NCBI GenBank assembly: GCA_036874045.1
Contig: CM072345.1
Coordinates: 9,720,501 to 9,784,500 of the forward strand
DNA: 64,000 bases
Origin: Cymodocea nodosa
Lineage: Eukaryota; Streptophyta; Magnoliopsida; Alismatales; Cymodoceaceae
Direction of reading: 5' to 3'
The notes beneath the pieces were generated by a model. It had not been told where the DNA came from, searched no databases, and saw only the letters and a program-made list of their open reading frames with translations. Below are positions 2,601 to 64,000 of this stretch, piece by piece; positions within the stretch are counted from its first letter, which is position 1; every line of letters begins with the position of its first letter. The translations under genes and the position numbers were made by a program.

Positions 2601-3552
2601 ATAACCATTTATATGCAATCCCATAAATGTATTCTTCTAATGCCTCCTTAGGGATAATCTAGTGACCGAAAATCTTCTTTTCCCTTATTGCAGTGCAAAT
2701 GGCACAGCTTAAACTAATTCATAGCAGAGGATTGAATGGATAATAAAGAAAAGCTCAAGAAGGCTAACAAAGGGAAATAAATTGATTTAGATTTCAACAT
2801 GGCACTTCATGCTGCCGTTATAATGACAGGCATGAATAGCACAGCTTAACATTCTGAGGCTGATAAGATGTTCAGATTAAAGAAAATTTCTCTCCTGGAC
2901 GGAAATTATCCAAAATAAGATTCACTCGATTTGCCTTTCAATAAAATTAACCCATTTAACTAACCAAACTTTGGCACAACACCAGAGCAGTTGGTAGATA
3001 TATAAATGAACAGTACTTGGTAGAATCACAAAAGCATTTTATTTACAAAAGTATTCAAAAAAATTGAAAATATGATTTTATTTTTTTTTAAAAAGCCTTT
3101 TCATTCAAATTACTTGCTCTTATATGGTTCAAGAGGAAAAAAAAATCAAGAATGATAACACCTTTAAGAAAACCAAAATTCACATCATGCTGCCACCATA
3201 TTCAATGTGCAAGACAAATGAGAACAACCAATATTGTAACTATATGTGCAATAATCCACGCACTAACTCTAAATTTGTCAATATATAAATGCAGTGTGTT
3301 AGGTTTTAATAGAATCTAGAAATGATTGGACATGTCAATCTGTTATTATAGCTGAGCTATTTGTGATTGAGTTGGCACATTTGAGTGTTAACATCACTAG
3401 ATCTAGGACCACATATATACATCTAACTTTGAATCTGTTAGTACATAAATTCATTGTAGGCAATTGTTAAGGCATTAGAATTCAGAGAAGTAATATTTCC
3501 ATGGTTATAACAATAGGATGAAAAATATACCATACAAATAAATTTAATCTAC
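2601..3552. other. PTAC3 intron 3, unclassified part
   Basis: AT-rich intron sequence between the Copia fossil and exon 3. I see no coding region. The only notable item is the short exon-derived copy at 3455-3480. Confidence 0.6.
3455..3480. repeat. 26-bp copy of PTAC3 exon 3 sequence in intron 3
   Basis: The 26 bases from 3455 are identical to bases 3615-3640 inside exon 3 (the codons for NALTIAY on the minus strand) and have the same orientation, 160 bp apart. Flanking bases do not match on either side. Confidence 0.85.
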
Positions 3553-3770
3553 CTGCACACTAAGCAAGCAATTAAAATGGAAGGTGGTAGCCATTCTCCC
3601 TGCTGCCTCCATTTCGTAGGCAATTGTTAAGGCATTAGAATGGTCACCAGCTTTACAGTCTTCTTGAATCAGAAGATCATAAATCTCATCAGTAGCCCTT
3701 AAACCTCCCTCAGCTCCCTTCAGGAATACTTGATTGGCATCATCCAGATGGTTATTCCTGACTAGTTCCT
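3553..3770 (-). CDS. PTAC3: PTAC3 exon 3
   Basis: 218 nt complete Glu186 and encode residues 187-258, ending LLSVQ before the donor GTAGAT. Intron 2 between exons 2 and 3 is only 95 bp. A 26-bp piece of this exon recurs in the next intron at 3455-3480 (see findings). Confidence 0.93.
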
Positions 3771-6700: not shown

Positions 6701-9179
6701 ATTCTGCAAATAAGTTTTTTCCCTGTCCCCCTCCAAACTAGCATCTGTCCACTAGGTCCAACTGTCTGAATCATGTTCACCTAACCAGATTCCTCCTCTA
6801 CTATGCCACCAACGCTCACTCCTTTTGATGCCCCCACCTCCCCAAACACCATTGCCACCTAAATTCTTGTTTGACTGGTCCTCACTTTTGTCCTCACTCA
6901 GCCTCGATTACTTGGACAAGGGGATAAAGACAAACCTTCATCAAACATGGAAGGAATCATCACTTGATATCACTCAAGGTCAGTCGAGAACATTTGATGG
7001 AAGGAAAATGACTGCCTAAAATTGCAGGTCCCCTTAAGACTTGTTCAAGATCACTTGCTCATGAGGAATCACAGGGGCAAGAAACAAAATGAGAGAGTGT
7101 AGCTTCTCCTCTCACCCATCATTTGTTCTTTCTTCCTCAATAGAAAAATTGTCACAAGCTTGGTTGCCTTAATACATGCATTATAAAGGAAACAAGGCTT
7201 CTCAAGAGATAGAGAATATCACCCACATATTCATGTTACAAAGCTTTGGACCAACATAGTCAGCATTCTTTGGCAATGTTTTACTTAAATTATCAAACAT
7301 TCATTCACCAACTGAAGTAGAGGACCCATAATGTGGAGGCCAAATTGACCATCTCAATCTAAAGACCAAGACCAAGCCAACCCAACGTACAACCCATCAA
7401 TCCACAAAAGGTAGCTCATTATGCTTGCATGGATGCTTGGTCCACTTAGGCATGGTTAAAGTAAAACCTCTAGATATGCTCATCCAATCAACACTAGTGG
7501 CCAATAGCCACTCAAGCATAAATTTCAACATGAGTCATTACCTTTCATAATAAGATTGTTCATCATTTAGCCAACCAAGCATACTTCTTCACACAAATCA
7601 TTCCCTATCATGACAAGACCATTTGTCATAGGCCATTCAAGCACATTTACCTACCACACGTCACCTTCTAATTGCATGTTCCTCACCTACCACCAACAAT
7701 ACCATAAATATGTCATTATTTTACTGTTATAGGTATGCAATTCAAACCATCTTTGATTGTTTCTTTCCTTTCCACTCACCTAACTTAAATGTCATAGGGT
7801 ATTTGGTGGCTCATATCAGGCAGACCCTAGATACTTTCTTTTCCTTTTAATGTAATAGGGTCCACCCCATCTAGACCCGATCCAATCTACCCAGGCTAAA
7901 TGAGTGAGCAAGATTGACCCAAGTCAAGCTGCCATGCAGGTATGAGGAACATCACACTTAATATATGTAACATTGTTGTTGTTGTTGTTGGGATATACAA
8001 CTATAATATATTTATAAATGATTATCGGATCATACTACATATGTAATGACATTTTACCATATGTAATGACTTACGTACCATGTAAGTACATTATACACAA
8101 CTATAAATCCAATTTTTCATCAACCAAGGAATAATATTCCTATTTTGGTCTTGAATCAATATCTAATCTACACCCATAAATGGTCTTTCTACGAAGAATT
8201 TTTTTTTATGGTAATATTATTGACTGAGTGTAGATTGTTACTTCATACATGTGACGGTCACAAGCAAGTTGGAATACTTATTCTAGATTTTGAAAGCATG
8301 TTTCTCATTCTTTGTCATGACAACAATGTTGTTTTGGTGCAAGTTCGCACCTATATGGTCAATGCAACTAAGGAGATTTGTAGTCATCGCCTTGATTGAC
8401 TTTGGTGTCAACGAACAAACAACCTTAAGTAAGGAATGCTAGTGTCTTCACGTATTAATAATTTGTTACCAATTCCGATATTTGACGCTTTAATGTTTCG
8501 CAGATTGTTCTCGTGTATTATGCAAAAATACACTTCATTCCAATCAGGCGTTTGGCATATCTGCCTTCTATTTCACGTTTTAACTCTCTGTTCTGTAGCA
8601 TGCATCCTCGCCGAAAAGAGTGGTGCAAACCATGTGTCGACTGCTGCACTGCTAGTTTATAGTAGGATTAGGCAATGCGTGAAACGAAGTACAAGCTAAA
8701 ACATAGACACTAAAAACCTTCCACTTTCACAACGTAAGTGTCTAGGATGCTAGAAATAAATCATATGCATGCCAAACAAATACAAAGGAATTTACCGCGC
8801 CTTCCTCGTCGCCGGATAGGACATAAGAAACGATGAGCCCGTGGAAGGACCTCGGCCCAGGCCTGAGCCCCGCGGCGACCATATCGTAAATGACATCAGA
8901 CACTCCGACTGGATCCCGGGCCCGGGCGCGCTCCATCAGCTCCTCCATGAACGTGAACCTCAGGCCCTTCTCCACCATTGACAACGAAATCCCGGAGGAA
9001 GAGGGCGACGACGAAGAGAGTCCGTCGTCACGGGCCTGCTTCTTCTTCTTCTTCCTGCGGGCATTCTTCTCCGTCGTAGGGATGGCGGCGGTGACGAGGA
9101 CGGAAGGTGTGTTGGGAGTAGAATGTATACTGGAGGAGGTCGGGAATTTGGCGGGCGAGTACAAGCGGAAAGCGACCAT
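3553..9179 (-). CDS. PTAC3: PTAC3, plastid transcriptionally active chromosome protein 3 (5' part, exons 1-3)
   Basis: PTAC3 is a plastid nucleoid protein with helical PPR-like repeats and a SAP domain that associates with the plastid-encoded RNA polymerase. Here 258 codons are readable in three exons, and the gene runs off the left edge. The product starts with a Ser/Thr/Pro-rich stretch typical of a transit peptide (residues 1-35), then a basic run (41-50, RRKKKKKQAR), then the conserved block around KGLRFTFMEELMERAR (71-86). Exon 2 carries RPLHETFLSLVRLFGSKG and exon 3 EAAGRMATTFHFNCLLSVQ, both hallmarks of Arabidopsis PTAC3 as I remember it. All splice sites are GT-AG and keep frame. The SAP domain and acidic region would lie outside the window. 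The start at 9179 is the first ATG of the frame and gives a sensible transit peptide. The gene diverges from psaE, 2.4 kb away. Confidence 0.95.
3866..4037 (-). CDS. PTAC3: PTAC3 exon 2
   Basis: 172 nt encode residues 129-185 plus one base of codon 186. The acceptor is ATGCAG before ATGCAAGCATTG; the donor is GTATGT. The join to exon 1 gives GDEEGA-MQALRKEL, which matches the family without a gap. Confidence 0.93.
4091..4374. repeat. Interspersed direct repeats in PTAC3 intron 1
   Basis: The motif ATCCCTCTCTCCCTTTAAG occurs at 4092-4110, 4296-4314 and 4341-4359. The last two copies continue together through CCCTTACAACCTAA, making an almost tandem 45-bp duplication. Near 4110 there is also a doubled AAGTACAAGCAT. 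Confidence 0.85.
4375..8795. other. Rest of PTAC3 intron 1
   Basis: About 4.4 kb of intron. Several short open frames exist (for example on the minus strand at 6021-6348 and the plus strand at 8145-8699) but I recognise no protein in them. The 6100-7900 part is less AT-rich and may be decayed transposon sequence I cannot classify. There is a short GTT microsatellite near 7974-7990. Confidence 0.5.
8796..9179 (-). CDS. PTAC3: PTAC3 exon 1
   Basis: The exon encodes residues 1-128, 384 nt, ending on a codon boundary (Ala128) before the donor GTAAAT. It is GC-rich and unlike the AT-rich DNA around it. It holds the transit peptide, the lysine/arginine run and the start of the conserved region. 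Confidence 0.93.
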
Positions 9180-11382
9180 TTCCTTCGCCCTCCTGCCAGA
9201 GGGGAGAAGTGTAACCGTGTAAAGTGGATAAGCAAGAGAGAAGTCATGGGCCGAAGCTAAACAAAGACCATGGGCACTAGTGGCAAAAGTGTAATTTCGG
9301 GGAGTATAGTTTGATAGCCAGAGAGTTAAAGAGTTCGAAAGTTGTCTTTTATTTTTTATTTAAAGAGTTTAGAGTCAGAAAGTTGTCTTTCTAGCTTCTT
9401 AAGATTAAAATTAATTCTTTTTAATTATCTAGCTATAATTTTCAACTTTATTTTTTGTATTTATTTATCAACTTTGTTATGAATATCATGTACGAAATAC
9501 ATATTATAAATAAATGCATATCTTTTGAAATTACATTACACGAATAAATAAATATCAATATTTACGATATTTTTCAATGAGCATTTACATAAAAATTATA
9601 TTTTTATTATTATTTTAACGAAGGTTGTATTGTAAGCGGTAGATTAAACTTAGACGTAAATGATTGATTGATAAATGAGCAAAACAAAATTCCTGAAGGT
9701 ATGTTCTTAATTTCATACCAGATTTTAATATAAGTTACAAAATTACAGTTTCTACAAGACTTTCAAAAGCAACCTTTTGCTGCTGAAAAATGAATTGATG
9801 TAAAATATCTGTTGTGTTCGATTTACCTCTTTCAACTTCTAACTCTCCACTATCAAATGCAATTATAATTTTTTTCCCTTGAAACAATACAATTTTAACT
9901 ATGATATTTATAATTTTTTTCATTATAAATATTTAATTTTGATGCATCGTACTATAATATTAAACACTAATATAAAAAATAGTAACTTGGTCGAAAATAG
10001 TGAGATAAAATATTTGTACATTCATGAAAAGGAGCAAAAAAAGATATCTAAAATGAATTTAATGTACTTCTTTTAAATAACTAATAAAAACTATGAGCAT
10101 GTCTGTTCACTTTTTTCTCTTTTCGAAAATAACGACGTAGTCATGTCAGTTGCTACAATTTAAATGAAAGTGCTAACAAATGCTCGCGATCAAAGAGAAA
10201 AATGCATGGTAAAAGTAGAATTAGAATGAGTGGGCGGTAATCAATTTGATTTATTTGTGACTCATCTAATTATTCTTAACAAGTTTATAATATTAGAAGA
10301 AATTTCCTCGATACCTCCAAAACTTTCATTATTCTTAGAACATCAATTACAGCAAGTAACAAACAATTTCCATTTTCATACTCTACCTTTTTAAAATGAA
10401 TGTGGTTTTATATTCTTTGATATTCGAAATTAACAATTGTCTCCATATATATTATTTCAATTGTTGTTTCCTTCTATTTCCGTGTCTTCATTTTTTTTCC
10501 TTTATTCAAAGTTCCTCTTCACACCATTTCTTCCATGACCAACATCACTTATTTTCACAAGTGCATGTATCAGATCCCTTGTAGATGTCCCATGGCTTCT
10601 TTAAAATTCGTATCATTGAAAGCTCCTTTCAATTACTATATTTGAGAACTACATTGATCAAAAAGATAGTAAACTTCAACATGATCTCTCGTAATAAAAA
10701 ACTATATCGAGCTTATGTCATTTTTTACCAAACTTTTGAACACTCAGGTTTAAAAAAAGAAGAAGTGATGTAATAGAACTTAGAAAATGACAAACCCATC
10801 GTAGAAAAGTTAAAAAAGCCTGTGTGACTTATGATGTCCTTCAATTGTTAACAATGATTATCAATAAAGATTCTGAAAAGAATCAAGAAATGGCATATAA
10901 ATAAGAACATTAATTTTAGATTTGTTTGTGTACTTGAAATTAAATTTAACAAAATTTAAGTATTTGTTTAAAAATTTAACGAAAATTTAAATTTAAATGA
11001 CAGTAAATATTGTTAAGAAGGAATAACATATGTAAAAAGGAGGAATCTTCATGGACTAGCTTTGATAACGTGAATGTGTGTGCATTTCAAGTGACTACCA
11101 ATACAGTAATAAAAAATTTTAGTTAGTTCATATATTGATATTTTCGTAATCCATATATTGTTTCATCTGTTAGTTCATATTTGTGTCTTCGAAATTATGT
11201 TGCATACCACTAAAATACACGTAGACCTATCAGCTGTTTCTTCAATTTTGAGGTTATCAATGAATTTGATTTTATTTGAAATTCACGGGAGCGAATAATT
11301 TTACAATACTTGTTTTAGATCAACTACTGTTTTAGTTTTTGACTTCGGATTTAATTTCTTACAGGTAAAATGCTAAATTTTA
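9180..11382. other. Intergenic region between divergent PTAC3 and psaE
   Basis: The first 100 bp next to PTAC3 are GC-rich and probably contain its 5' leader and promoter. The rest is very AT-rich, with only short open frames (two adjacent ones of 62 codons at 10396-10773) that resemble nothing I know. No transposon was recognised. Confidence 0.5.
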
Positions 11383-11437: not shown

Positions 11438-11635
11438 ATGACACCAGTGGTCTCAGACCTTCGCCTCCATTGGTGTCCATAGATTCGCGTGGCCGGGAAA
11501 AAAATCCACACCCCTCATCGGAACCCCTCCCAATCTTTAATCATCGTCACAACGTACACACGCGCACTCTCCATCACCTTCTTCCCATCTCTCAGACCAG
11601 AGGAGCAGTGTTCGGAGCGGACCGACCACCCCCGG

Positions 11636-11911
11636 ATGGCTACCTCAAGCATGGCCTCGGCAGCTTCGGGCTTCGTTCTCACCTCCCCTCTCCCGAAGAG
11701 CACTGCCAACGTCCGCGCATCAGTCCTGGCATTCCCTAAGAACGACAGGTGGAGCCACCGGAGAATGGTCGCCGTCAGAGCGGCAGAAGGGGATGGGACG
11801 GCTCCTGCAAGTGACGAGAAGGCTCCCGCCACCGAGGCAAGCGGTGATGCGCCGGCCGCTGCCCCGAAGAAGCCCAAGCCGGAGAAGATCGGGCCGAAGA
11901 GAGGAACAAAG
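11636..11911 (+). CDS. psaE: psaE exon 1
   Basis: 276 nt, residues 1-92 (transit peptide, spacer and GPKRGTK), ending on a codon boundary before GTAATT. GC-rich relative to its flanks. Confidence 0.97.
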
Positions 11912-12820
11912 GTAATTAGCTGATGAGGTTTGTTGGTTCATAAGTACAGTCATGTGCAGATTAAATTATCGTACAAAAGTTAAAAGTCAAAACCATCCTT
12001 GTCCGACTCACGTATGGTTTTCGAGAGTCTGGTTCAAGAAATTGAGATGGTTGTAACTTGTAAGGGGCATAAAAGACTTGTTTGTTGTCACAAATATAAA
12101 TAAGATTAAATTAAAATTTTAATACATATTAACTTATTATATAACTAAATTTAAGTTTTAAAGAATTGATTATAATAAAATAAGAAACATCTTCGAAAAA
12201 TAAGTGCTTTGGGAGGCCTTTTTACCCAAATTTCCTATTATTCTATAGAATAGGATCATATTGATTTTTCAGTGGAAGGTTTTACACCTCTTGGCAGAGT
12301 GATCCACGCATCGGATTCAGATTTTTTAATATGCCCGGGTTCCTCCGAATCTTACAGCAGCAAATTATCCATTTTTTTTAGCGTATAAGATCGTTCGAAT
12401 TTTGACGAAATAGGTGTCCTGTTTGTTCCGGAATATCACAACAGTCAATACCAACAGGAGAAAGAAAGAAAAAAAAACTCTTTTAGGAAGTCCCCCGCCG
12501 GCGTTCATTGCTCCATATCATTTGTAGAAAAGTAGTGAATGACTTTTGCCTGTAGGTCAAGATCCTCAGGAGGGAGTCGTATTGGTACAATGGCGTTGGA
12601 TCGGTTGTGACCGTTGATCAGGTAAATTAACAAGCTTTTCAGTAGTTTCTGTTACACTGTCCGTGATTGTTACCGGGTGATGACATCTTTCCTTCTGATT
12701 TTTGTCGTCTTCCAGGACCCCAACAGCCGTTACCCTGTGGTGGTACGTTTCAACAAGGTGAACTACAACAACGTAGCTACCAACAACTATGCATTTGACG
12801 AGATTTTGGAAGTGAAGTAA
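11636..12820 (+). CDS. psaE: psaE, photosystem I reaction centre subunit IV (complete, 3 exons)
   Basis: The three exons give 148 residues. Residues 1 to about 49 form the chloroplast transit peptide (Ser/Ala-rich, no acidic residue before 37), followed by the Ala/Pro/Lys-rich N-terminus of mature PsaE (50-84). The SH3-like core follows: [28 protein letters not shown], then [17 protein letters not shown] and the end DEILEVK. This is the nuclear-encoded stromal subunit of photosystem I that helps bind ferredoxin/FNR and takes part in cyclic electron flow. All three core strands and the YPV/RF motif are intact and the length is normal. The start ATG fits the known MA(T/S)-type N-terminus; no in-frame upstream ATG precedes it in the leader. 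The gene lies head-to-head with PTAC3 and tail-to-tail with the glutaredoxin gene. Confidence 0.98.
12556..12621 (+). CDS. psaE: psaE exon 2
   Basis: 66 nt, residues 93-114, from acceptor TGTAG to donor GTAAAT; both boundaries are phase 0. Intron 1 before it is 644 bp. Confidence 0.97.
12716..12820 (+). CDS. psaE: psaE exon 3
   Basis: 105 nt, residues 115-148 and the TAA stop, after the acceptor TTCCAG. Intron 2 is 94 bp. Confidence 0.97.
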
Positions 12821-39100: not shown

Positions 39101-42100
39101 AATCTCCAACAGCATAAAGCCTTTGAGGCTTCTCTTGGTTCCTTAAACAATGTTGGAAATCTTGCATTAATGGCTTCTCATCGGTACAAATCCTCAAACA
39201 TCCACAGGCTCACCGGATTGTAATTTAGATTTCATTTGTGTTTGGAATGCAGATTTCAATTGAATGTAAATGTGCAATTGGCCAATGATTTTGTTTGCCA
39301 GTGTTCTGGCCTTTAAAAAATAAATGTGGAAATGGTGATGAACAGGGACACACATCTTACTTTTCTTAATTTATATTTACTATGGGGACAAACCTAGTGC
39401 ATGAGGCTTCCTTTCAGACTTTATGCCCACAGTTAGGGGGACTTTCAAGGATTTTATCCTGTGATCTCCAGCTCATGATAGCTGTTTTAACTGTTGCATC
39501 AGGGCTCAACCTCTTAATTTTTGTTTTACAAATGAAATTAAAATCAGAGAACTTGTTGCTGCATTTGAATTTTGTTCTTTGCTTCCAAGAAACCACACAA
39601 GAATCCTTCAATATTTGCTTTTGTCAATTTCAGCCAAAACTTGGAAGGCTTTGTTGTTAAAAAATCAACTGGTGATGTGGATGGTTAGTGACTTTAGGAT
39701 GAGTCATCGTTTGAATGCATTCATCAAATTTCTCTCATGTATGAATCTATACGGTCCTGTGAATCTAGTACATGATGACCTTGTATGGAAATGACCAATA
39801 TTTATAGCCCTTGTAAATTTACATTATTCTTTTTCTTGTGTTTGTCACTCAGAAAATTGGCCAGAAACAAAAGGCCTCAATCATACTCTTGAACTTTTCA
39901 TATATTCTTATCTCTGCTAATGTTGTTATCCTTCTTACAGGCATGCACATCCTGGTAGTCCTTATGTATTTGGGCTTGCTGGGGTTGATGATGATGTTGA
40001 TTTTCCTGAGCCAATGCCAGTTGTTGGTATGGTATTCTACGCTATATGGTTCTTGAGAGATCAATACGAAATTTTCAACGATCATGCTAATTTGTTAGTC
40101 ATGTAGTTTGTGTTATTGGTTGCTATCAAGTATCAACTTATCATAAACAAGACTGTTGCATATAACGCACGGGGATTTGATTTACTTTTGATTCAATATT
40201 ATCTTTTTGGAGCCAAATTCTAATCCCTCATTGACAATTGAGAATGAAAGTAAAAAATGTTACTTTGAATAGGAATTGAGATCCTCTCCAATTCAGAGTA
40301 AATGGAGAGGCTCTAATTTCATGAATCTAGACCATTGATTTTTGTACACATGGTCCATTTTGATTGCATTAAGTCATTAAGTTTTTCATTTTTTCAAGAA
40401 AAAATATTTCATTTAAAATCTCACCATCCTAAGTGTATTTTAAGGGTTAGATCTAAGAATAAAACCTTTCCAATTGTGATGAATTGGATAGTATCCAAAT
40501 TCTTTAATGGACCTACTAGCCTAAAGTTTTAGATTCTCATAGTCAATGTGCTTTGCATTTTTAATTATAATTTTGCAATGTGACTGGTTAAATGCATATT
40601 ACCTGGCTTCCCATATGTGCTTTGATTAGTAACTTTTACTTGGTTTCGGTTTTCAATTTTCTTTACAATATCACTTCTAGTCATGCTAGTATTGGTGTTT
40701 TATCTTGTTAGTGTTTTAGAAAATGAAATTATGTAGATAATTTACCGTTCCAAAACTGTTGTGTTTTCTTTAAAAAGTTTATATTCCTGCACCATTGTTC
40801 TCATATTTGATCAACATTCAAAAGAATACCATGGCCATGATTTGATTACTTCTATTTAATTAGAAAGTAGTTTCTTTTTATTAACAAAATATTAAATTTT
40901 CCCATGATATTTTTCTCACACAACATGCAAGAATGTAAGTGAAGGCCTTGCAATTTCTTGTTTGGTTTTTTGTGTATATATGATCATTATGTTCATTTTC
41001 ATTTTTGATCAGTAAGGCAAATTACAAGTATGAAAAGTGCAATTGGAAAAAAAAGCTGATCGAACAAACAGGAATGAAAAAATGCTAGTTTCTAATGCTA
41101 CCATTAGATTTTTTTAACAATAAATCATATAACGGACCATTATATTGTAATTGATACGGTAATGAAACAGAAGATTCTGCTTATTGAAACATTAATGAAT
41201 CATGGTTGTCACCATCATCGACGATAATAATGTGGTGACACAGCTAGCACTTCGCCCCACCACCAAACCATCACTGCTGTCGGAGTTCCCGGCTGGTGAA
41301 TTTTTAGCTCAAGGAAATAACATGCTACCATTAGATTTGTCTTCTGTAGGACAGACTTATTCAAGGAGCAAGGAAGTAACATGACTTTGGGAATCAAAGC
41401 AGAAACTGTCGTGAAAGATGTGATGATTTCTTTAGAGGTATCTTTCAACTAAGTGGAAGGAATAAAAAAACAGTCTGGTGCATTGGGACTAGGTGCATGG
41501 TGCACTAGTAGACATTCTTGGTGTGGTGTGGTGATGACCATTGGTTGATCCATGAATAATGAAGCTTGTGTAATGAGACCATGCAAATAGTCCAAAATGT
41601 GAGAACTTCCATCAGTGTTGGAAGTTGTGCAAAATTAAGCATAGATTCAAGCCAATAAAAAGAAGAGACCAGAGAAATGATTTTTTCATCAAGGATTGGG
41701 AAACCTAAAGCTGACAAGACTGTTGGCAAATATTTTGGTGTGATTAGGTGGACTCCTTCAGGGCCATTACGTAGCTCCATAAATGGCAGATATGGTACGA
41801 AGAGCTGGACAGTTGCTGCTGCCCCTAACATGATAGATCAAATGCCCCTCCTGCATCATATCAAGGTTGAAGTTCGCAGATCTCTCTATTTCCTTATAGA
41901 TTCTAAGGATGATTTTACATGGATAGGCACACCTGATGAGAACATCTCTGTCAAAGCAGCATGGGAAGCAGTTAGGAAAAGGAATAGGCCAGCCAGATGG
42001 AATGAAGGCATTTGGAACAAATACTTACCCACCATAAGTGTCTTTCTTCCTTTGGAGGCTCTTTCATTCTGCTCTGCTAATGGAAACAAACATGAGGAAA

Positions 42101-45100
42101 ATGGGCTATCAATTGGCATTGAGATGCAAATATTGCACATTCTAGCCTCAAGAAGACTTGGGTCATCACCTATGCTTTGATGGGGAATTGGCTATCCAGT
42201 ATCGTTTATGGCTGAATAGGAAGTTAGAACTCAATTTAAGGAACCAAGCTGATTGGAGACACTTTGTTCAACATTCCTTGTTCTGAAGAATTTAAGTCTC
42301 TTGCTAGTAACTCCCATAAATTTGTGGTGCTCACAGCATTTAGGAGTGTTGGAAAGGATGGTGTGTTATTGCTAAAGTCAAATGATCCTTTGCGAATGTC
42401 AAAGCTAAGGTGGATTCATCTTTGGACACATTTCTCACAAGCTACACCAAGAAGTGCCCTTGCTATCCAAGATTAGTTTTAGATATTTGGAAGCTTGTTG
42501 GTTGATTGCAACTGGTTTCGCCTTGTCCAAACTTGGTCACTCTTGGCTGGGGTTAAACATTGATGGAGCAGTTAGCACTGATGGGAAGATAGTTGGTGGA
42601 GGTGTTGTTAGGAATGACCAAGGAGGCATTATTGCAACTTTTATAGAACCTTATAGACTACTCAACGTAGAGATGGTAGAGCCATGCTTAGTGGACACTA
42701 TTTGCAAGGAAATGGAGATTAACTTGGAACAACTCGAAGTTGAAGTAAATTCTCTCTCTCATTGAGGCACTCTAAAATAATCAATACACATTTGGCCAAG
42801 CCATCTCGCTCTAGACTACCATAAGAGATAAGATCAAGCAGACTCACTCCTTTAGCTCAAGATTCCAATAGGCTTGTAGGTTGAAAATTGGGCCTTAATA
42901 GTAGTCATAGACACCTTTTCAAGCAAGTTGGTTCCTTACCTTGTGAAGTTTGCCAATAATTACTCATTAATAAAATGGGGGTTCCGTGCCTCGAAAACCT
43001 TCCTAGTGCTTTTGTTCAGTCTTCTCTGTCCTTTTGTAATCTTTAGTTTTTGGGCCCCATCCCTTTAATAGATGAGGGATATTATATTAAAAAAAATTTG
43101 GTGTGTTCGAAATAGTTGATCTTTGGAACTTAATGGAGTTATGCTCATAGTTGTATTGTTCATGCTTTATTAGTTAGTGAAAAATTTTGAAGTGCTTCTT
43201 GGGCATTGATAGATGTGTGGATGCTAATAAGTCGAGGAACAAATGAATCACCAACAAACTTGAGGATCCATCAAAGCACTATTTGGTCATGGGAAACTCA
43301 TGCAACATAACCTAGATTCTATTGGGTGTTTTCCTTGTTAATAGTCATGGGGGTGACACTGATGTTTTATTGATTGATGTTTGGGTGATATGGAGGAACA
43401 ACTTTGAACATGATGGTATTGAGTTGAGTGCTGATGTTTGGTGATAATGGAGAGGGTAGGAGGCATTAACGTAGGTGTGTGAGGTGTTGGTGATTGGTGA
43501 AGTGGTGGTAGACGATTGTGAAGAGAAAACCCTTGGAGAAGAGTTTGGGAGAAAAGAGTAAAGGTTATTACTAATGAATGAAAAGTTACAATATATATGC
43601 GACCAAGTTAAATAGATCCTTAACTAGATCTTAGTCCTAACTACATTAACTTCTACTTTTTGACACTCTCCCTCAAGTTGGTAGGTAAATATTTATCATT
43701 CCCAACTTATTATAGATATCACCAAATGCATTAATACCCAAAGCCTTTGTAAGAACATCAGTGAACGACATATAGATGATGCTTTTGACTACTAGATCTC
43801 GAATGTAGTGGTAGTCTATTTCAATGTGCTTAGTATGCTTGCGAAACATCTCATTTTTTGTAATGTAGATAGTTACTTGATTGTTACAATACATTTACAT
43901 AGGTAGTTGAACCTTCACCCCAAGTTCTTGAAGAAGTGACCTCAACCACATTATCTCACACATTGTTTCTCTCATGGACTTGTATTCTAACTTTGCACTT
44001 GAGCAAGTCACAACATTCTATTTCTTGCTCTTCCAAGTGATTAGATTCCCCCTATGTAGGTGAGATACCTAGACATTGACTTCCAATCTCCCTTATCACT
44101 AGCAAAATGAGCAATAGAAAGGACTTCTATCTTCAAGTGACCATTATGTTTGTATAGAAGTCTTTTTCCAGGTGTTTTCTTAATGTAGGCTAGGACTCTC
44201 TGTGCTCTTATCTAATGTGCTTGTCAAGTTTTGTACATAAATTAACTTAAAAGTCCTACACTATAGGTAATGTTAGGTTTGGTGACTATAAGATAAATAA
44301 GTTTTCTTACAAGTCTTCGATACTGTACCAAATCCTTAAGTTCTTCAAAGAAGTTATCCCAGAATGATGGATTTCTTTTGATAGGAGTATCTTTGGGTTT
44401 ACAGCCCAAGTGTCCCGTTTCTGTTAGAAGATCTAATGCATATTTCCTCTGATAGTACAATTTTATCTTTCGAGTAAGCAAACTAAATACCAAGAAAGTA
44501 CCTTGGGCATCTCATATCTTTTGTCTAAAAAACTATGGCTAGGTAATCCTTGGTTTTGATAATGCTGTTACAATCACTTCTTGTTAAGAGAATATCATCC
44601 ATATACACTACTAGTATAACAAGTCCTTGATTTGTTTGGCATGCAAAGATTAAGTGATCCACTGCACATCTTCTGAATTTACCCTTGAACATAGCTTGAC
44701 TAAATTTTCAAACCATGCCTGTAGACTTTATTTTAAGGCATAGATCACCTTACGTAGCTTGCACACTTGATTCTCCCCTTAAACAACATAATCTAACAGT
44801 TGTTCCATGTAAACTTCCTCTAAAAGATCTTCATAGAGGAATGCATTTTTGATGTCAAGTTGATGTAGCTCCTAGCCTTGGTTCACAACTAGTAAGAGGA
44901 CTACACAAATTGAGTTCAACTGGGCAATTGGTGAGAATGTTGCAGTATAATTAATGCCATACTCTTGGGTAAAGTCCCAAGCCATGAGTTTGGCTTTGTA
45001 TTGATCAATAGATCCATTTGGTCGATATTTGATAGTGAATACCTACTTGCATGAGATAACATTGGCTTCTATTGGACAAGAAATTAGCTTCGACATACCA

Positions 45101-48100
45101 CAAGACTGTAGGACATCCATAGCATCTTTTCAATGTGCTAGTTGTAGTGCCTCTTGATATGTCCTTGAAAGTGACTCATTCTGTATACTGAGTGTAAGAT
45201 TTCTACAAGAAGTCAAATGTTCATAGCCTATATAATGGACAATGAGATACTGGGTACAAGAGTGAGTACCTTTGCAAGGGACAATTAGAGGTTCATCAGT
45301 GGGTGCTATTAGATTTGCATCGGGGGACTCGATGTTGGGTGTTTGAGTGGCCATTGGATGAGGTTTCCTTTGTCGAGAGTACACCTATAATGGCTATGGA
45401 GTTGCCTTACAATCAACATGAGTTGAGTCCTTGTGACTCTCACTAGTAGAATCCCTAGTAGTACTTCCAAGGGACTCAAGAGGAATGACCACAAGTGTAG
45501 GAATAAGAATGGATTGATCAGAGAGAGGACTCTTAGAGAAATAGGCTTTGTCTTCAATAAAGGTAACATTAATAGAAATATGGTAACATCTGGGGTGAGG
45601 ATGATTAGACCTATACCTTTTTGAGTCCTAGAGTATCTAACAAACACACATTTAATTGCTTTAGCATTAGGCTTGTCCAAACCAGACTTAAGATCTTGAA
45701 CATAAATAATACACTCAAAGACATGAGGGGTTAACTCAAATAGTTCTCGTTCAAGATATAGATGATGTAAAGGGACTTTACCTCCTAAAGGTGTGGAGGG
45801 CATTTAATTGATCAAATATGCAACATTAAGAATTGCGTCAAACTAGAGTTACTTAGGAACTTTGATTTAGAGAAGCAGAGTGTGTGTAATGTCAAGGAGA
45901 TGCTGATGTTTTCTCTTAGCCACCTTATTTTGTTGAGAGGTGTGATGGTAAATAGTCTGATGGATGGTCTCCTATGAATCACAAAACTGTTGAAAGGAGG
46001 TACTAATGAACTCTAGGTATTATCACTATGCAAACCTTTTGGAGTTACAACAAATTGAGTTTTGATTTCATTAAAGTAATTTTTGATAATAGACAGAATA
46101 TTTTGACGATTTTTTGAGAGGTACACCCAACAAATTTTGGAAAAATCATCAATAAGCACAAGATAGTAGTGATGACCCCCACAAGAAGTAATATGACTCG
46201 AACCCCAAGCATCATAGTGCACAAGATCAAACATGTCACGACTGATAGTAAGTTGAATACACGCAAAGGTTGCCCTACTATGCTTTCCTAATTGACATGA
46301 CTCACAAGTATACTTAGGGATAGTGACCCATGGTAGAGCTTGGCGAAGTTTTTGTAAGGATAGATGACCTAACTGGTAATGCTATAGAAGAGGGGACTTA
46401 GAAGTTGATGATAAATGAGCAGTCAATCCACAAGGAGGTGTATCTTGAACTAGGATGTATTCTTTGGTGCTTCTTTTATGACCCAAACTAATCCTCGTAC
46501 CCGTCCACAAATCTTGAAGAATGTAGTGAAATAGAAAGAATGTTACACAACAGGATAGTTGGATGGTGATGACACTAATAGATAGAAGGTTGACTGAAAG
46601 ATTGGGAACATAAAGTATGTGATCAATGCAAAGATTAGATGTAACTTGAACAATGCTAACCCTTGAAATTTGACAAGTGCGACTATCAATGATGATGATA
46701 GTGCAATGATTGGACAATTGTTTCAAGTGAAGGAGAAGAGTAGTAGAACTTGTCGTATACTGAGATGTACCTAAGTCAACTATCCAAAGATTATTGCCCC
46801 TAACTACCATAATCATTTTTGTACTTGAGGTGGATGCTAGAGTAGCTGTGGTGAAGGAGGTAGAGGCCTGTCATTGGAAAATCCCATTGCTGCTGGAAAT
46901 TCCTGTCAACATCGCTTCTGCTGTTGGAAAATCCACTTTCACCCCTTGCATTGCCATTGTAACCACTTGATGCTGTTGTTTCCCAGGCCTGTGGTCTAGC
47001 CTGATTCATCCCAGGCCTTCTGCCCGGTCATCCAGTCTCCTTTCTTGGGCTGATCAGTTCTTGCTGCCATCCAAGGGTTAATAGTTGCAACTTGCTGTTG
47101 CGGCAAGCCATGCTACTGGTCCTCCTCTAAGTTGCTAATGTATTAGGCCAGGAAATTGGTAGGAGGACATTAAAACTATGTAGGTGGACAGGTAACTATA
47201 AAAACTTTATCCGGGCTGGATAGAGTTTTTATAGTTACCAATAATGTATTTGTACCTAGAGAGCTATCTCTAGGTCATTTAGCCTAATGTTACCTGTCCA
47301 GCTAATGTTAATACTTGTCCTTTATCCAGGCTTGGGACCAACTATGTAGGAGTTAACCTCCATAGGTGGAGTTTGTGTAATATAACACATTGTAATATAA
47401 TATTGGAAGATTAATATAATAATATTAATTACACTCGTCAACATCTAAAAATGTATTAAAAATATCAGGTTTTCATCTTTTAATAAATCCTAACACGTAA
47501 GTAACATAGAATTACTATTTTGTTCACTTCAAGTATTGAAGCATATGCCTCTCCCATGAGCTATTGGAAACAAACCCATGGCATGCATGCCAGACCAATA
47601 ATGTATTTGTACCTTTGTATCAAAAAGTTATACTTGGATTATTGCTAAATTTGACAATGGATCTAGCAATTATTTGACTAGAACAAATAAGATGAGACGT
47701 GTAAACAACATTCAATTGTGATTTTGATGAATCATATCTGGACACTTACCTAAATGAGTATGAATTATAAGAATAAACTGTTCTATGTCCTCGTGGCTGA
47801 CCTTTAATGACACAAAAAGAAAAAAAATCTTCATGGAAAAGGAATATTTTGAGGTAGCAATTTTATTATAGGTGTTTCATATAAACAAAATGTGTTTCGA
47901 ACCCTTGAAGTCCTGGTGATAAACAATGGGACCATCCTAATACATATCTTACGTCATGGTCCTTTGCTAATTTTATGCATTGGAAAACCCTCAAATTGGA
48001 AGGGTCAAATTCCACTTTACACAGAAATTGGATTGTTAATTGTTGTTAAGTACCAGAAATAAATCAATTCTTATTTACACCAGAAAGTTTTATTCCACAG

Positions 48101-51100: not shown

Positions 51101-54100
51101 GTAGACAAACTGATGTAGTTGCCTAGTTTGTATGAAAATTCTCATGGTGTCGTAACTTTAATTCAAGAGAAAGAATAGTGCTATCTTTTAAAGAGAGGGA
51201 ATATATTGAAAACATGTGACTAGGCCGGGGACATACTATAAAAAAAAATATTGAAAACATGTGACAATTTATTTAAATTGGTCCATGTGGATTAGGTAGT
51301 AAGCCAAAAGCACCTATGAACTTTTTGCATTATTGAACTATTGTAATGTGATGTCTTATCAACAAATAGAATGTACATATAAGAATTACTGATTTGTTCC
51401 CTATTGAGCTGGATTAACTAGACTGGTGTGTTGTTAATTGAACTAGTTGGCCAGTTGCTTCTCAAATGCTTGGCCTGTAAAATTGCAGAGAGGATTGACT
51501 TCGGTAGGGTCATCCTTCTTTTCTTTGTTGTTTAAATTAGACAAGCATGATGTAAGACGTGGATTAGATTTAGAATGGGAATTGTGTAGATGTATTCCCT
51601 ATATGGGACATTTGTTGTGGTATTTATACTCCATTAGTTATAGGTGGTGGTAGATAAGATTTGCCCAATGATCTCCAATCTTCTCTATGTGGATGACACT
51701 ATCTTTTTCCTTAATGGTTGAAAAAGGGTGTGGAAGAGGTTATGAAACTCTTGAATGACTTCCAAGCTTTGATGGGTTAGAGAGTAAATGCCAGGAAAAA
51801 TTTCTTTGTTGCTCCCAAAAACCTCACTGACCAAAGGATAGATATGATCAAAAACATCATAGGTTTTGACAGGGGGACTTCTCCTTTCGATATTTGGGTT
51901 GCTCGGTTGTCAAGGGAAGAGCAAAATGCATATACTTTGATAGTTTGATGCAAAAGGTGCATAAGAAGTTAGCATATTAGAAGGGTAAGTTACTCTCTCT
52001 AGGAGTTTGGTGGTCCTCTTTCTAGTGTAAGAAGATAGCTCTTTTTGCTAAATGACTTGGGGGTCGTGGCAACATCAACTTTTGAAGTGAATGGTGGTTA
52101 CTTTCTGGACCATTATTAGCTCAGGTGGAGTTGATGCCCAGGCTAGAGGATCCGTTGGTAGTTGAAGTGGCAACTAATTTAGGAGTGTTTGATAGTGTCT
52201 CCCTCCTACCCAATATTATCCTAGAAATTTGCAACAATTTACAATTCATAACAGATAATGAGGATGTCTTCAAGTGGGAACTCACCAACTGTGGAATCCT
52301 ATCAATTAGAATGGCATGCAAAGCAATTCTGGAAAAAGGGGAGCCGGTTAGGTTGAATGGTGGCTTATGGTGCAAGTTTATACCGATAAAGATATCTTTC
52401 TTCCTCTAGAGGCTTTTCCATTTTGTACTTCCAATGGAGATAAATGCTAGAAAGGGAGGATACTAGTTGGCCTCTTGTTGCAAATGTTCTAAATTTGGGT
52501 GAGATGAAGAGAACTCTTATCGTATTTGCTTCGAGGGAGGTTGGGCCATCCTTGGCAAATTTTGGATGAATAAGAAGTTGGGCCTTAACTTGCGTAATCA
52601 GGATGATTGGAAATTGTTTGTTCAGCAAACACTCACCCAAGTGAGCAAGAACTTGCCTATCAATGGTTTGAAATTTTTAGTGGCTAATATTCTATGGCAA
52701 TGCTGGAAGGAGAGGTGCTCAATGATCTATGAGAATAGGAATTGCTCTTTTGAGTGCATCAAGGAAAGGAGTGAAGTGGCTTTGACCATCTTCATGCAGA
52801 TCTTTGGAAGATCTCCATGCTGGCTTGGAGAAGGTGCCATAATGCAGTAATTAAGCTTCAAACAATTGGTTTCCATAGTGCTCACCACTAGATGGTACAT
52901 TTGGGACAAGCCATCGCATTTGAGGCTCAAGCTAAATATGGATGGAGCGGTCAATTTGGAAGGCTATGCGGTGGGGGGTGGAGTAGTTTGAGATGAAAAT
53001 GGATCCATTGTTTTTGCTTTCTGCAATTTTCAAGGTAGAATCAGTATTATGAAGGTGAGATCTATGCCTTGATGGAAGTTTTGCAGTATTGCTGGAGTAT
53101 GGGTATTTCTATTGGTCTTTTGGAGTGGAGATTGGCTCCCTTCCTCTGCTGAACCGTATCAAAGGCATTGGTTGCCTTGGGGGGCAAATAATGTCAAGAT
53201 GGGTAGACCTCTACTGGTCTATGGAGCTATTCCACTCCCTTTGCCATGTACACCGGGAAGCTAATTGTGTTGCAGATGCTCTGGCAAAGGCTGGCCTCAG
53301 TGGCCATAGGGGCCTTTTTTCAAGTACAAAGGATATTCTGGTGGAAGCCCGAAGGCATCCTTGTATGGACGCCTGGAGTATCCCTAGCAGTCTAAGATGC
53401 TAGGAATTTTGGATTCTGTTCTCTTATCACTTTTCAGTTTTTTGGTGATACCTTGAACATACTTGTAATAGATCTTTTACTTGGGTCCTCACCCTGTTAA
53501 TTGATTGGGGATTTTCTTTTAAAAAAAATAAAAAAAGATAAGAGCTGCCCATGATACAACGATCTTGTGGTGCTTAGTTGCTTGACATGTCAGCTTCAAT
53601 TGGCTCCCATTTGGTTGGATGGCATCCACATAGGCCCCATGGTCCAACCGTATCATACAGTGAGTCTCCATGTAAGACATTAAGGGAGTTCATGGTGATG
53701 TGTTCTGCTTGGTTAACTTGGCTGTCCTAGACTGACCTCTCCCTTGGTGGGGTCATAAATCAACTTTCATTGGGCATGCTGTCTGAGGAAGATCGGGTGG
53801 GCTGACCAACCAACCATGCAAGTGCAAAGGTAGAATCCAGTACTTTTTGATGTAAATTTTTTGGTTGCAACACAATGTAGTGGTTTTTCTTATTGAAACT
53901 AGTTTGCATTCTCAAATACTGGACTTGGCAATAGGATTCTATCAGTATTGGATGTCAAATTCATTGTTTTCCTTTTTTTTTCTTTTGCTTTCTTTCCTTT
54001 TCCTTTTTTATTTGCCCTGTTCTGATTGTCTTAATCAGGATTTGTACTCTGGATAAATCTTACTTGGAATGAGAATCACCCTGCTCTTATTCAAAATAAA

Positions 54101-59180: not shown

Positions 59181-61531
59181 AGGATTCATTTATCTCTTGT
59201 ACTTATATGGGTGCTTAACCCTAATTAGATGTTAACGCTAATCACATCTTCCTCTCCACCTTCTTCTTCAACCTCTAATAACTTGGCATCAGAGCTAGAC
59301 ACTTGATTAGGGCCTTTGATTTTTCCATCTTGTGACAAGAACAGATGGAAATCTTAGTTTCTATATTGTGCACTTTCGTGGTTCACTTCACACATGCATG
59401 TTTGTGGTTCACTTCGCATGTGTGGGTTTTGTGTTTGCATTCATGTCTACATTGCAATTGCTGTTAATCTGGCTAGCCTTGACCTTGACATTGCATCATA
59501 GATTTGAGGATAAGTTTTGGGTGTCGATACAATGTCAGATTTAGTTGAAACTTTTGCCAAGGTGATGTGCATCTCAACTTTGATTTATTTCGTGTCAATG
59601 ACAATATTTACAGATTAGTCTGCCTTGTTTGCTTCTGGTGGACGTGGTCATGGTCGTAATACAAGAGAACGTAATGATCGCTAGTGACCAAAATATCATT
59701 GGTGTGGCAAACATGGACACAAATCAAAAAAATGCTAGGACAAGTTTCCACGTTTAAGACATTCTCAACATACTAATGCTAGCTTGGAAACTACGTCTAT
59801 CGTCTCCAATTACAGGGACAAAATTCTACTACCATGAATGCTCAAGCATTTTCCTCACTTCTAGGTACAAGCACCACTTTGATTGCATTCGATAGTGAGC
59901 CCTGGACAATAAATTTTGGGGCATCTTCTCACATTTTAGATAATTCCACTCTATTTAACTGTCTATTGTGCACGACAAGACCTTTGTGACTATAGTTAAT
60001 GATCATTCATATTCTATATTTGAAAAGGGGGACATCCAAACCTTTTCTTAGATAAAGTTGAATGATGTCCCTTATGCTTTTGATTTTTTTTTAATCTCTT
60101 ATCCATTAGTGCCCTTACTATTCAACTATAATATTCAATTACTTTCTTTCCTTTTCATGTTACTTTTCAAGACTTGTAGGCAAGGTGGATGATTGGTTTG
60201 GAGCATAGACCATAATTGTATGGAGCATACCTACTGGTTCATGATTAGATATCTTATAGTTTGATTGCATGTATGTCTAACACAAATTTTTCTCTTTTGT
60301 GACACTATCATCTTGGTCATCCATCATGGGAAAAACTTCATCAGGTCATACCATGGGTTTCTGTCTCTCCTTTTACTTGTAAATTTTGTCAACTTGGGAA
60401 GCACACCTATGCCTCCTTCAAAAGTTACATATTGTGTCGTCTAATCATATGTTTGATCTTGTTCACTACAACATCTAGGGTTCTAGTAGGGTTGTCTATT
60501 TTTGGTTACAAATATTATGTTGTGTTTGTTGATGATTATTCTTGTATAACTTGAGTTTATTTGTTTAAAAGATCGTTGTAGTGTTCTTAATGTTTTCAAG
60601 GATTTCCTTGTAAAAATAAAAAATTAATTTTTTGTGTGTTCAAAAATCTTGTGCACTTATAATGATTTAGAATTTATACAAATAGACTTTCAAATTACTT
60701 GTTTTTCTCTTGGTATTATTCCTGAGACTACTTATCCTCATACATCATAACAAAATGATATTGCTGAACATAAACATCGTCACGCCTTTGATGTTGGCTA
60801 CGTCATTATGTTGTAGATGTGTGTTCCTAAGTTTTTGTAGTTTGACAGAATTCTCTCTTTCGTTTACTTGATCAATCAAATGACTTTTACATCCTTGGGG
60901 GGAGCTATTCTTTTTCATTGTCTTTATCTTGAAGGAGAATTATTTCTTATTACCCTGAATGTGTTTGGGTGCATTACTTTTGTTCAAGATTTCACTCCTA
61001 ATTTTGATAAATTATGTGCTTGTGTAATAAAATAGTTCTTTATTAGTTACTCTCATACTTAAAATAGATATCATCTTTATAATCTCCCTGTTCATTGATA
61101 TTTTACCTTTAGGGATGTTACCTTTTTTAAATCTAAATTTTATTATGATAGTGGAGTAGATCCTTCACCCTCTATCGAGGTTGCACCCACTTCTTCCTCT
61201 CCATTACCTATCAAAGTTGTTAGTGGTTAGACTCCTTGTGTCACACTCTTTAAAGAACCTTTTGTGTAGTGTAATACAAATCAACCAACATTACATATGT
61301 ATGGTCGTCAACCACAGGCTCTTTTTACCACTACCACACCATCTTCTACTTTTGATAGTGAGTTTGACTCCCTCTCTACTTGTTCATGCCCACTAACCTC
61401 GGACGATATTCCTATTGCATTAAGGTAGGGAACCTACTCTTATACCTAACATCCCTTATCGAATGTTTCCTATGCTAACTTTAATCTCAATTTTTGCCAT
61501 TATATATTTTTTTAATTTTTTATGATCCTCA

Positions 61532-61726
61532 GACACTCAAACAGTTTGGTGAATACCAAGAATATCCTTAGAGGTGATAGTAGTTAAACCTTCATAGACT
61601 CTCAGATAGTTTGATATACATCAGAAGTATCTATGAAGGTGATAACATATGAGCTTTAGTGGACACTCAAACAATCTAGTATACACGAGGAGTATCCAAG
61701 GAAGCGAAAGCTTGTAGGAAGCCTTG
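61532..61726. repeat. Three 65-bp tandem repeats inside the SINE-like body
   Basis: Units begin at 61532, 61597 and 61662 with GACACTCAAACAGTTTGGTG, GACTCTCAGATAGTTTGATA and GACACTCAAACAATCTAGTA; each continues AATAYC..AGTATC..A.GAAG. The spacing is exactly 65 bp twice, with substitutions only. Confidence 0.9.
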
Positions 61727-61936
61727 TTAGGCTCCAATATTGTAGACTTTTCTAAATACTGTGTACTTTGCCTTGTAGAGATTTCAACTTGTCAGGGGTA
61801 CCTTAAATGGTCCCATCCACCAACTTGTTTGAGATTACTAACTGAGGCAATACTCGCAACAGTGGTATGTAGGTTAGATAAGTGATGCACACATATACGG
61901 TTTGCCAATGCTTGAGCAGAGTTAGCACTACTGTCT

Positions 61937-62055
61937 ATAGACACTACACGAGAACTTCTCAGGTGGTCACCCATCTTGATTCTGCTCTCGACCAAACATA
62001 GTTAACTTCAGAGTTCTTACAAGAATAGGTGCTTGGTAATAGGTGTAAATACATC
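61937..62055 (-). ncRNA. 5S rRNA-derived head with pol III internal promoter
   Basis: The 3' two thirds follow plant 5S rRNA closely: AGAACTCTGAAGTTAA, TGGTCGAGAG, GATGGGTGACCACCTGAGAA and TTCTCGTGT align without gaps. The 5' third is weaker but collinear (AAGCACC, ACACC, GATG at the very start). The A-box, intermediate element and C-box positions are all present. Too divergent to be a working rRNA gene. Confidence 0.85.
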
Positions 62056-63466
62056 TTTGCTATTATGCTTTAGCTATTTCTACTTAGTTTTTACCTTCAA
62101 GTCTTTAAGATGCTCTCTAGACTCATCATTGGAAGATAGTTATGGATAATGAAATGCAAACTTTTGTTTCTCGTGGCACTTAAAAATCTTGTATCTTGCC
62201 TTGAAGGAACAAATGTAGTCACCTATAGATGAGTTTACACTATGAAGTACAAGTCGGATGATAGTGTTGACAAGTAGAAAATTTGTTTGGTGATTTGAGG
62301 CTTCAAATATAGAGTGAAGTACTCTGAAACATTCTTTGTTGTGGCTTACCTTTCATTTGGGTTCTACTCTCTATGGTTGTGAATCAATCTTGACTCTTAC
62401 CCTAACTTAATGTTAAAAATGTATTTCTCTATGATGATTTGGATGAAATTGTTTACGTGGAGCAACCTCTAGGCTATGTTGCTTAAGGGGAGGCACAACT
62501 AGTCTATTTACTCTACAAGACCATTTATGATCTTAAACAAAGTTTGAAAGCGTGGTATAAGAAATTTTATATCGTGTCTTGGAGTGGTGGTTTTGACAAA
62601 TGTCGTGTTGATCACTTTATCTTTGTAAAGAAAACTTTAAGAAGAGTTGTTTTACTTGCAGTTTATGTAGACGATATGTTGTTGACATGTAGTGATGTGC
62701 AAGGCATTAATGAGACATAAATACTTTGCCACTAAAGACATAAGTAAGTTGAGATATTTTGTAGGGATTGAACTAGTCTTTTCCAAAGGGAGACTATCCT
62801 TAACTCAAAGGAAGTATACTTTAGATTAGTTAAAAGAAATTGAACTTGAAGGGTGTCAACTAAAGAGTAGTTCCATGAGACAAAATCATTCCTTTTATCA
62901 TGAAAATTCTCCTCTATTTGAAAATCCAGATAGATATAGCAGACTAGTTGGGAAACTTATCTATTTGACAGTTACTCGACCTAACATCACCTTCACTATA
63001 AATTTACTCACTCAATTGATATATGCACCAAGATAGGTACATTGGTAGAGTATTGTTCGTATTTTATCATTTATAAAAAAGGCTTTAGTAAAGAGACTTC
63101 TCTATGAGAAACATGTACACCTATATGTTAGATACTCAGATGCTAGATTTGTAGGTGATAAGGCTACCAGAAAATTTACCTCTAGTTTTTTTAACATATC
63201 TTGGTGGTAATCTTGCTTCATGGTGAAGCAAAAAGTAGAATATAGTTTCTAAGGCTGGTGTTGAAGATGAATATAGAAGTTGTTAGAACCCTTGCATTTC
63301 GATAATATAAAAATCTATATGAGAAATGAAGATGTATTTCATAGGTACAATTGAAGTGTCAAAGCTAGACTGAAAATAACCAAGCTAGCCTGGAGATCAT
63401 AACAATTGACGAATAATCGCAAACCAAAAGAAAAAGTCGAACAATTATTTCGTGAGTAAAGTGGAG

Positions 63467-64000
63467 GTCGAATAGTTATGAGATAACTATTCAAGTTTCT
63501 CGAAAGGTTATAAGTTAACTGTTTGTATTTAAGTGACTTCACACGTGTAACTTATAATATCACGTGATTGAGGAAAGAAGGCAAAACTCGTATAGTTGAG
63601 TTAACTGTTTGAGTTTCTCAAATGGTTAAGATAACTATATGATTTTACAGGGTTGTCATATGCACAACTTATAACATCACGTGATTAAGGAAAGAAGGCA
63701 AAACTCATGTAGTTATGAGTTAATTGTTTGAGTTTCTCAAATAGTTAACTCTACGACTTTATAGGATTGTCATGTGCACAACTTATAATATCATGTGACT
63801 GAGGAAATAAGTCAAAATTCGTATAGTTATGAGTTAACTGTTCGAGTTTCTCGAATAGTTAAGATAACTCTACAACTTTACAGAGATCTCACGTGCAGAA
63901 ACTCGAACAGTTAAGATAACTCTACAACTTTACAGAGATCTCACGTGCAGAACCTAAGTCATCACGTGACAAGTATAAGAGTACAACAAAACGGAAAATT
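63467..64000. repeat. Tandem array, about 115-120-bp units, continuing past the window
   Basis: Each unit contains a G.GTTTCTC.AA.GGTTA block, an ACTTATAATATCACGTGATT-like block and GAGGAAAGAAGGCAAAACTC. The ATCACGTGAT motif or its variants lie at 63559, 63676 and 63790, with another at 63961. Inside the last unit a 43-bp stretch (63858-63900) is repeated perfectly at 63910-63952, period 52. Confidence 0.9.

Follow-up and report, generated by a model that had tools for sequence, protein, structure and literature searches.

A 552-nt insertion in the window (the whole 64-kb stretch of DNA that was analysed) is probably a plant SINE-like retroposon with a 5S rRNA head, for which SINE3-like is our working term, and its lineage probably diverged from the 5S genes before the insertion took place. 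The insertion lies in a Copia relic, carries a 5S rRNA-like head with its promoter boxes at the 5′ end and an A-rich tail at the other, is bracketed by a target site duplication, and has no primer-binding site of the Cassandra type (Table 1). We regard it as a SINE-structured 5S retroposon in a plant because of this anatomy, the empty site that can be rebuilt from its flanks, and the failure of the comparison with Cassandra. The structure gives good support for retroposition of a 5S-headed RNA by a LINE-type mechanism, and the element is likely to belong to a SINE family, of which the 64-kb window contains a single copy. The first-pass annotation had delimited the same element without giving its strand, which is the minus strand.

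Table 1. Positions of the insertion, its parts and its surroundings in the window
Feature	Position	Strand	Remark
Whole insertion	62055-61504	minus	552 nt
Target-site duplication, 5′ side of element	62056..62066	TTTGCTATTAT on +	10/11 match to 61493-61503
5S rRNA-like head, full length	61938..62055	-	RF00001 match from 62056
Box A, 5S internal promoter	61993..62007	-	11/15 to reference plant 5S
Intermediate element (IE)	61985..61990	-	6/6 to reference plant 5S
Box C	61960..61977	-	16/18 to reference plant 5S
Central body, no match	61712..61937	-	~225 nt
65-nt unit U1, hairpin	61647..61711	-	fold z -2.55
65-nt unit U2, hairpin	61582..61646	-	40/65 to U1; fold z -3.49
65-nt unit U3, hairpin, extends into tail	61517..61581	-	fold z -1.42
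A-rich 3′ tail	61504..61523	-	15 A among last 22 nt
Target-site duplication, beyond tail	61493..61503	TTTGCCATTAT on +	10/11 match to 62056-62066
Copia relic upstream of insertion	61300..61492	+	in-frame stops; translations
Copia relic continued, RVT_2 region	62067..63260	+	frame 0 of joined flanks; extent by eye

Elsewhere in the window, an ORF at 11621-11923 (+) resembles the N-terminal region of PsaE, subunit IV of photosystem I, in five solved sequences (best E 2.1e-7); it has no Pfam listing and points to nuclear plant DNA. By eye, the ORFs at 3544-3894 (-) and 8742-9359 (-) look like pieces of a pentatricopeptide-repeat protein, and the latter has no Pfam match. In addition, a TG-rich segment at 4199-4271 (-) is weakly mir-297-like (35.2 bits, where the gathering score is 90), probably by low-complexity chance.

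The insertion had been placed in a Copia fossil, and the flanks bear this out. When the site was emptied, leaving the flanks and one copy of the duplication, a single reading frame ran through a Copia relic with stops, and the translation of the joined flanks (...TSDDIPIALR*GTYSYT*HPLSNVSYANFNLNFCHY / ALAIST*FLPSSL*...) headed for the reverse transcriptase of a Copia element. The Copia identity of the upstream part was assigned by eye and by the frame that it has in common with the RVT_2 side. Two of three downstream pieces matched RVT_2 in Pfam (E 8e-4 and 0.066, both below the curated cut-off), the best match being a 57-aa piece with 19.5 bits against a cut-off of 31.6, and the third piece had no Pfam match. 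Just past this relic, at 63549-63952, there are tandem units of ~114 bp (2.9 copies) and a 52-bp pair. A second Copia-like relic was recognised by eye at 45309-46870 (-), and within it the segment 46013-46381 matched gag_pre-integrs (E 5.2e-5) and rve (E 1e-4), both below cut-off.

The direct repeats of 11 bp with one mismatch that had been described around the element, TTTGCCATTAT and TTTGCTATTAT, do bracket the insertion. An equal match at the same spacing occurs at 5 of 63,400 window positions, with the element's own pair counted. At the ends of the insertion the duplication and the Copia frame concur; the 5S start falls at one end and the A-rich tail at the other. The terminal bases are GATG and ATAT, and by eye there is no clear TT/AAAA target site. 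The insertion was said to start exactly at the 5′ end of 5S. This proved right to within a single base, since the 5S match starts at 62056, one base outside the element, and that base can equally be assigned to the duplication.

The head matched RF00001 at 62056-61938 (-) over model positions 1-120 of 120, with 35.1 bits and an E value of 2.6e-5 when 1 kb was searched (0.0017 over the whole window). The Rfam gathering score for this model is 38, so a default scan lists nothing here. For comparison we used 5S sequences and box positions that we take to be those of Arabidopsis and human, from which the host's own 5S may differ. The head shared 83/120 identities with the Arabidopsis and 67/120 with the human sequence, and at the 41 ungapped sites that separate the two it sided with the plant sequence 23 times and with the human one 10 times. 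Furthermore, its local score against the Arabidopsis sequence was 104.5, while the other 315 overlapping 400-bp pieces of both strands reached at most 32.5. The annotation had also claimed that the internal promoter is retained, and with the assumed box positions we found the same: boxes A, IE and C together kept 33 of 39 positions against 50 of 81 over the remaining 5S (one-sided Fisher P 0.008; P 0.023 within 5S positions 10-110 only). Among the 37 differences in the head, 18 were C>T or G>A, which is the pattern given by methylation decay. The folding of the 5S part was not better than that of shuffles (z 0.02). A tRNA head, as in the tRNA-derived SINEs of plants, was considered and rejected: ARAGORN found no tRNA in the window, and the head is 5S.

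Downstream of the head, the central body gave chance-level matches only elsewhere in the window, and a 91-nt piece of it folded not better than shuffles (z 0.29). It is followed by three units of 65 nt. The third shares 38/65 identities with U1 and 39/65 with U2, and the repeat at a lag of 65 scored 58/90 identities against a maximum of 44 among 300 shuffles. The hairpins of the three units are in the same register, and 81% of 48 pair cells are standard against 25-46% when the units are slid, a contrast that is partly expected because the structure was drawn from the same three sequences. U3 folded slightly better than its shuffles, of which 17 of 200 equalled it. The 195-nt repeat domain outdid 175 of 178 GC-matched pieces in folding, these being the ones retained from 600 random draws. 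For the whole element z was -1.62, a value that 5 of 100 shuffles reached. In four pairs both partners had changed, a number equalled by 58 of 500 swap controls; for the score and for the cells paired the controls equalled the hairpins in 52/500 and 46/500 (three sequences). Covariation thus does not stand clearly above the swap control and makes no case for selection on the fold.

The A-rich tail stands at the end of the insertion, as first described. No TTTT occurs on the sense strand in all 552 nt. Of 824 overlapping windows with a similar T content, that of the element among them, 39 also lacked TTTT, as did 56 of 2000 shuffles of the element by single bases and 128 of 1000 by dinucleotides; its absence is weakly in line with Pol III transcription. 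The longest open frame inside the element has 69 codons, and we attribute these frames to chance.

The first-pass annotation had proposed a 5S-derived SINE family in a plant. The structure of a 5S-headed SINE was found, and a family would be represented here by one copy, with none else in the window. Searches of the 64 kb for a second copy with blastn and nhmmer gave the element itself, its internal repeats and chance matches (E >= 0.99), and a covariance model of the 65-nt unit returned the three known units, the next best window match having an E value of 0.63. Searches with exact patterns in viral contigs (three) and prokaryote genomes (one), and blastn against plasmids, gave none; these are non-plant collections and carry little weight. 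When the 3′ end of the element was compared with the window for the tail of a partner LINE, only chance-level matches appeared (E 1.2 or more), and as a LINE source the window offers decayed LINE-like pieces at most. By eye, two ORFs at 41659-42765 (+) and 52086-53403 (+) resemble the end of a plant LINE; in Pfam they gave weak matches to zf-RVT (E 0.014) and RVT_3 (E 0.068), with unrelated families at similar E.

Parts of the element seem to be older than its insertion. The divergence of the 5S head (83/120) and of the 65-nt units (38-40/65) exceeds that of the duplication (10/11). If all decay had followed the insertion, the head divergence of 0.40 per site would leave the two duplications about 51% alike. 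A match of 10/11 or better then has a P of 0.007, although the test is biased, as a decayed duplication would escape notice, and the 18 C>T or G>A changes among the 37 differences of the head also count against it. On A/T sites alone, which were meant to blunt methylation decay, the match was 8/8 (P 0.022), and with the 65-nt units P was 0.024-0.038. The contrast in divergence and the better keeping of the boxes lend indirect support to membership in a SINE family.

Three other origins have to be weighed against a 5S-headed SINE. Vascular plants have a 5S-bearing element, Cassandra, and we consider it improbable that a LINE mobilised a Cassandra transcript whose start lay at the 5S within the LTR, or that the insertion is a decayed Cassandra. 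The Cassandra transcript reportedly starts in 5S (PMC10886601) and, without terminators, reportedly extends more than 400 nt further (PMC3095306), and against the patterns printed for Cassandra the element scored 13/13 for box C and 11/12 for box A (PMC7215508). However, the query printed there has box A, box C and then a primer-binding site at 5-200 nt (PMC7215508), and the Met-tRNA primer-binding site is missing here: the best match within 200 nt past box C was 7/12, and over the whole element it was again 7/12 against a shuffled mean of 7.9. The ends are not TG..CA, the Copia frame resumes immediately outside the 5S, and no direct repeats of at least 12 nt (seed 9) were found around the element, where two LTRs would be expected of Cassandra. 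Cassandra makes a target duplication of 5 bp, and that of the element has 11 bp. Earlier, the element had been held distinct from Cassandra, and the 5S at the boundary of the insertion, the missing primer-binding site and the longer duplication uphold this; by the printed description it probably does not belong to that group.

A one-off chimeric retrocopy is the strongest of the three, though still unlikely. Here a LINE reverse transcriptase would have switched template from an A-tailed RNA (LINE, mRNA or another SINE) to 5S rRNA without founding a family, or, as a variant, the two RNAs would have been ligated before a single insertion. In a catalogue of human and mammalian genomes, 5S/LINE-1 chimeras made up 10.5% of 253 insertions, and 20 of 27 5S chimera cases had duplications of 7-17 bp (PMC13174262). 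The lack of a second copy within the window agrees with such an event. Against it, the 5S of the mammalian chimeras is typically truncated and antisense (PMC13174262), and here it is full length and in the same sense as the A tail. In addition, the head has diverged further than the two duplication copies (P 0.007; 0.022 on A/T sites), change has spared the boxes more than the rest of the 5S (P 0.008), and the 65-nt units, too, seem to predate the insertion. The two origins are not exclusive, since chimeras of RTE LINEs with tRNA or 5S made new SINEs (work cited within PMC13174262), so a chimera could also found a family. The same contrast in age speaks against a retrocopy of a read-through 5S rDNA unit, in which the 5S gene would be followed by spacer and the 65-nt units would be spacer subrepeats. 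Spacer subrepeats are common in plant 5S, and the start of the element coincides with the 5S start. Nevertheless, we hold this origin to be very improbable, for TTTT is absent both after the 5S and from the element as a whole, and genic 5S has termination signals at once after it (PMC3095306).

A 5S-headed plant SINE would be transcribed by RNA polymerase III, would have a LINE partner and would be present in further copies. Pol III would read from boxes A, IE and C, transcripts would begin with the first bases of the 5S, and the promoter would thereby be retained at the 5′ end of each RNA. With no TTTT run to stop it, the polymerase could continue past the body and the hairpin units to the end of the A-rich tail. 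One of the plant's LINEs, most probably an L1, might then take the RNA via its tail, perhaps aided by the 3′ hairpins, nick the target and reverse-transcribe the RNA in place (target-primed), which would give the 11-bp duplication. In flowering plants the LINEs are almost exclusively L1 and more than half of the SINEs have a poly(A) end; a 3′ hairpin is apparently needed by one lineage of plant L1 elements (PMC3747384).

Our opinion is evenly balanced on a fuller proposal, namely that the element stands for a SINE3 family of plants, descended from a plant 5S gene and equipped with a 3′ module of tandem hairpins, and is a candidate for the kind of 5S-headed SINE from whose insertion Cassandra is proposed to have arisen. 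It has been suggested in print that Cassandra gained its 5S through a SINE3 insertion into the LTR (PMC10886601). If the reading as a 5S-headed SINE is true, plants would have an added promoter class of SINEs, and this printed speculation would become testable.

The element had been called possibly undescribed in plants. This agrees with a 2022 review, in which plant SINEs are tRNA-derived (PMC9033089), as the annotation had also stated, and with the titles and abstract openings of the literature searched, where no plant 5S-derived SINE is named; Repbase and most subscription papers lay outside that scope. One paper places 5S-homologous sequences among SINE3 'including plants', and the citation given there is the Cassandra paper (PMC3095306). 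The statement that 5S SINEs are described from animals is correct for fish, mammals and insects (PMC3272025; PMC8010984), and it is incomplete, since fungal ones have been printed from Aspergillus (PMC5063351).

Compared with known systems, the element shares with Cassandra, a plant TRIM with 5S in its LTR, a plant 5S with conserved boxes A and C. However, the Cassandra 5S lies in the middle of an LTR that is accompanied by a primer-binding site, whereas the 5S of the element stands at the very 5′ end beside an 11-bp duplication. The mammalian 5S/LINE-1 chimeras also hold 5S and other sequence inside one duplication, but the element has its 5S in full length and in sense orientation, and this 5S apparently predates the insertion. 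With the tRNA-derived SINEs of plants (Au, TS, p-SINE and ZmSINE; the Angio-domain superfamily) it shares what is probably a LINE-type mode of insertion. Poly(A) ends occur in more than half of these SINEs, and a SINE-L1 group of maize and sorghum has a 3′ hairpin; the heads of these SINEs, in contrast, are tRNA, and several have T tails (PMC3747384).

The SINE3 class of fish, some mammals, a beetle, Lepidoptera and Aspergillus likewise joins a 5S head that carries boxes A, IE and C to an unrelated body. The traits of that class seen here are the 5S head at the 5′ end, the three boxes, the A-rich 3′ end and the target duplication. PxSE4 and PxSE5 share ~63% with 5S (PMC8010984), and the duplication is variable in the class, three copies of the HaSE3 type having 19 bp, 8 bp and none (PMC3272025). 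The SINE3 elements compared for length have 259-389 nt (PMC8010984; PMC5063351), and the 552 nt of the element also exceed the range of 80-500 bp given for SINEs (PMC3272025). The lepidopteran tails are TGA or ATGT repeats (PMC8010984), in contrast to the A-rich tail of the element. Furthermore, the element differs from SINE3 in its plant host, its plant-type 5S and its triple 65-nt hairpin repeat.
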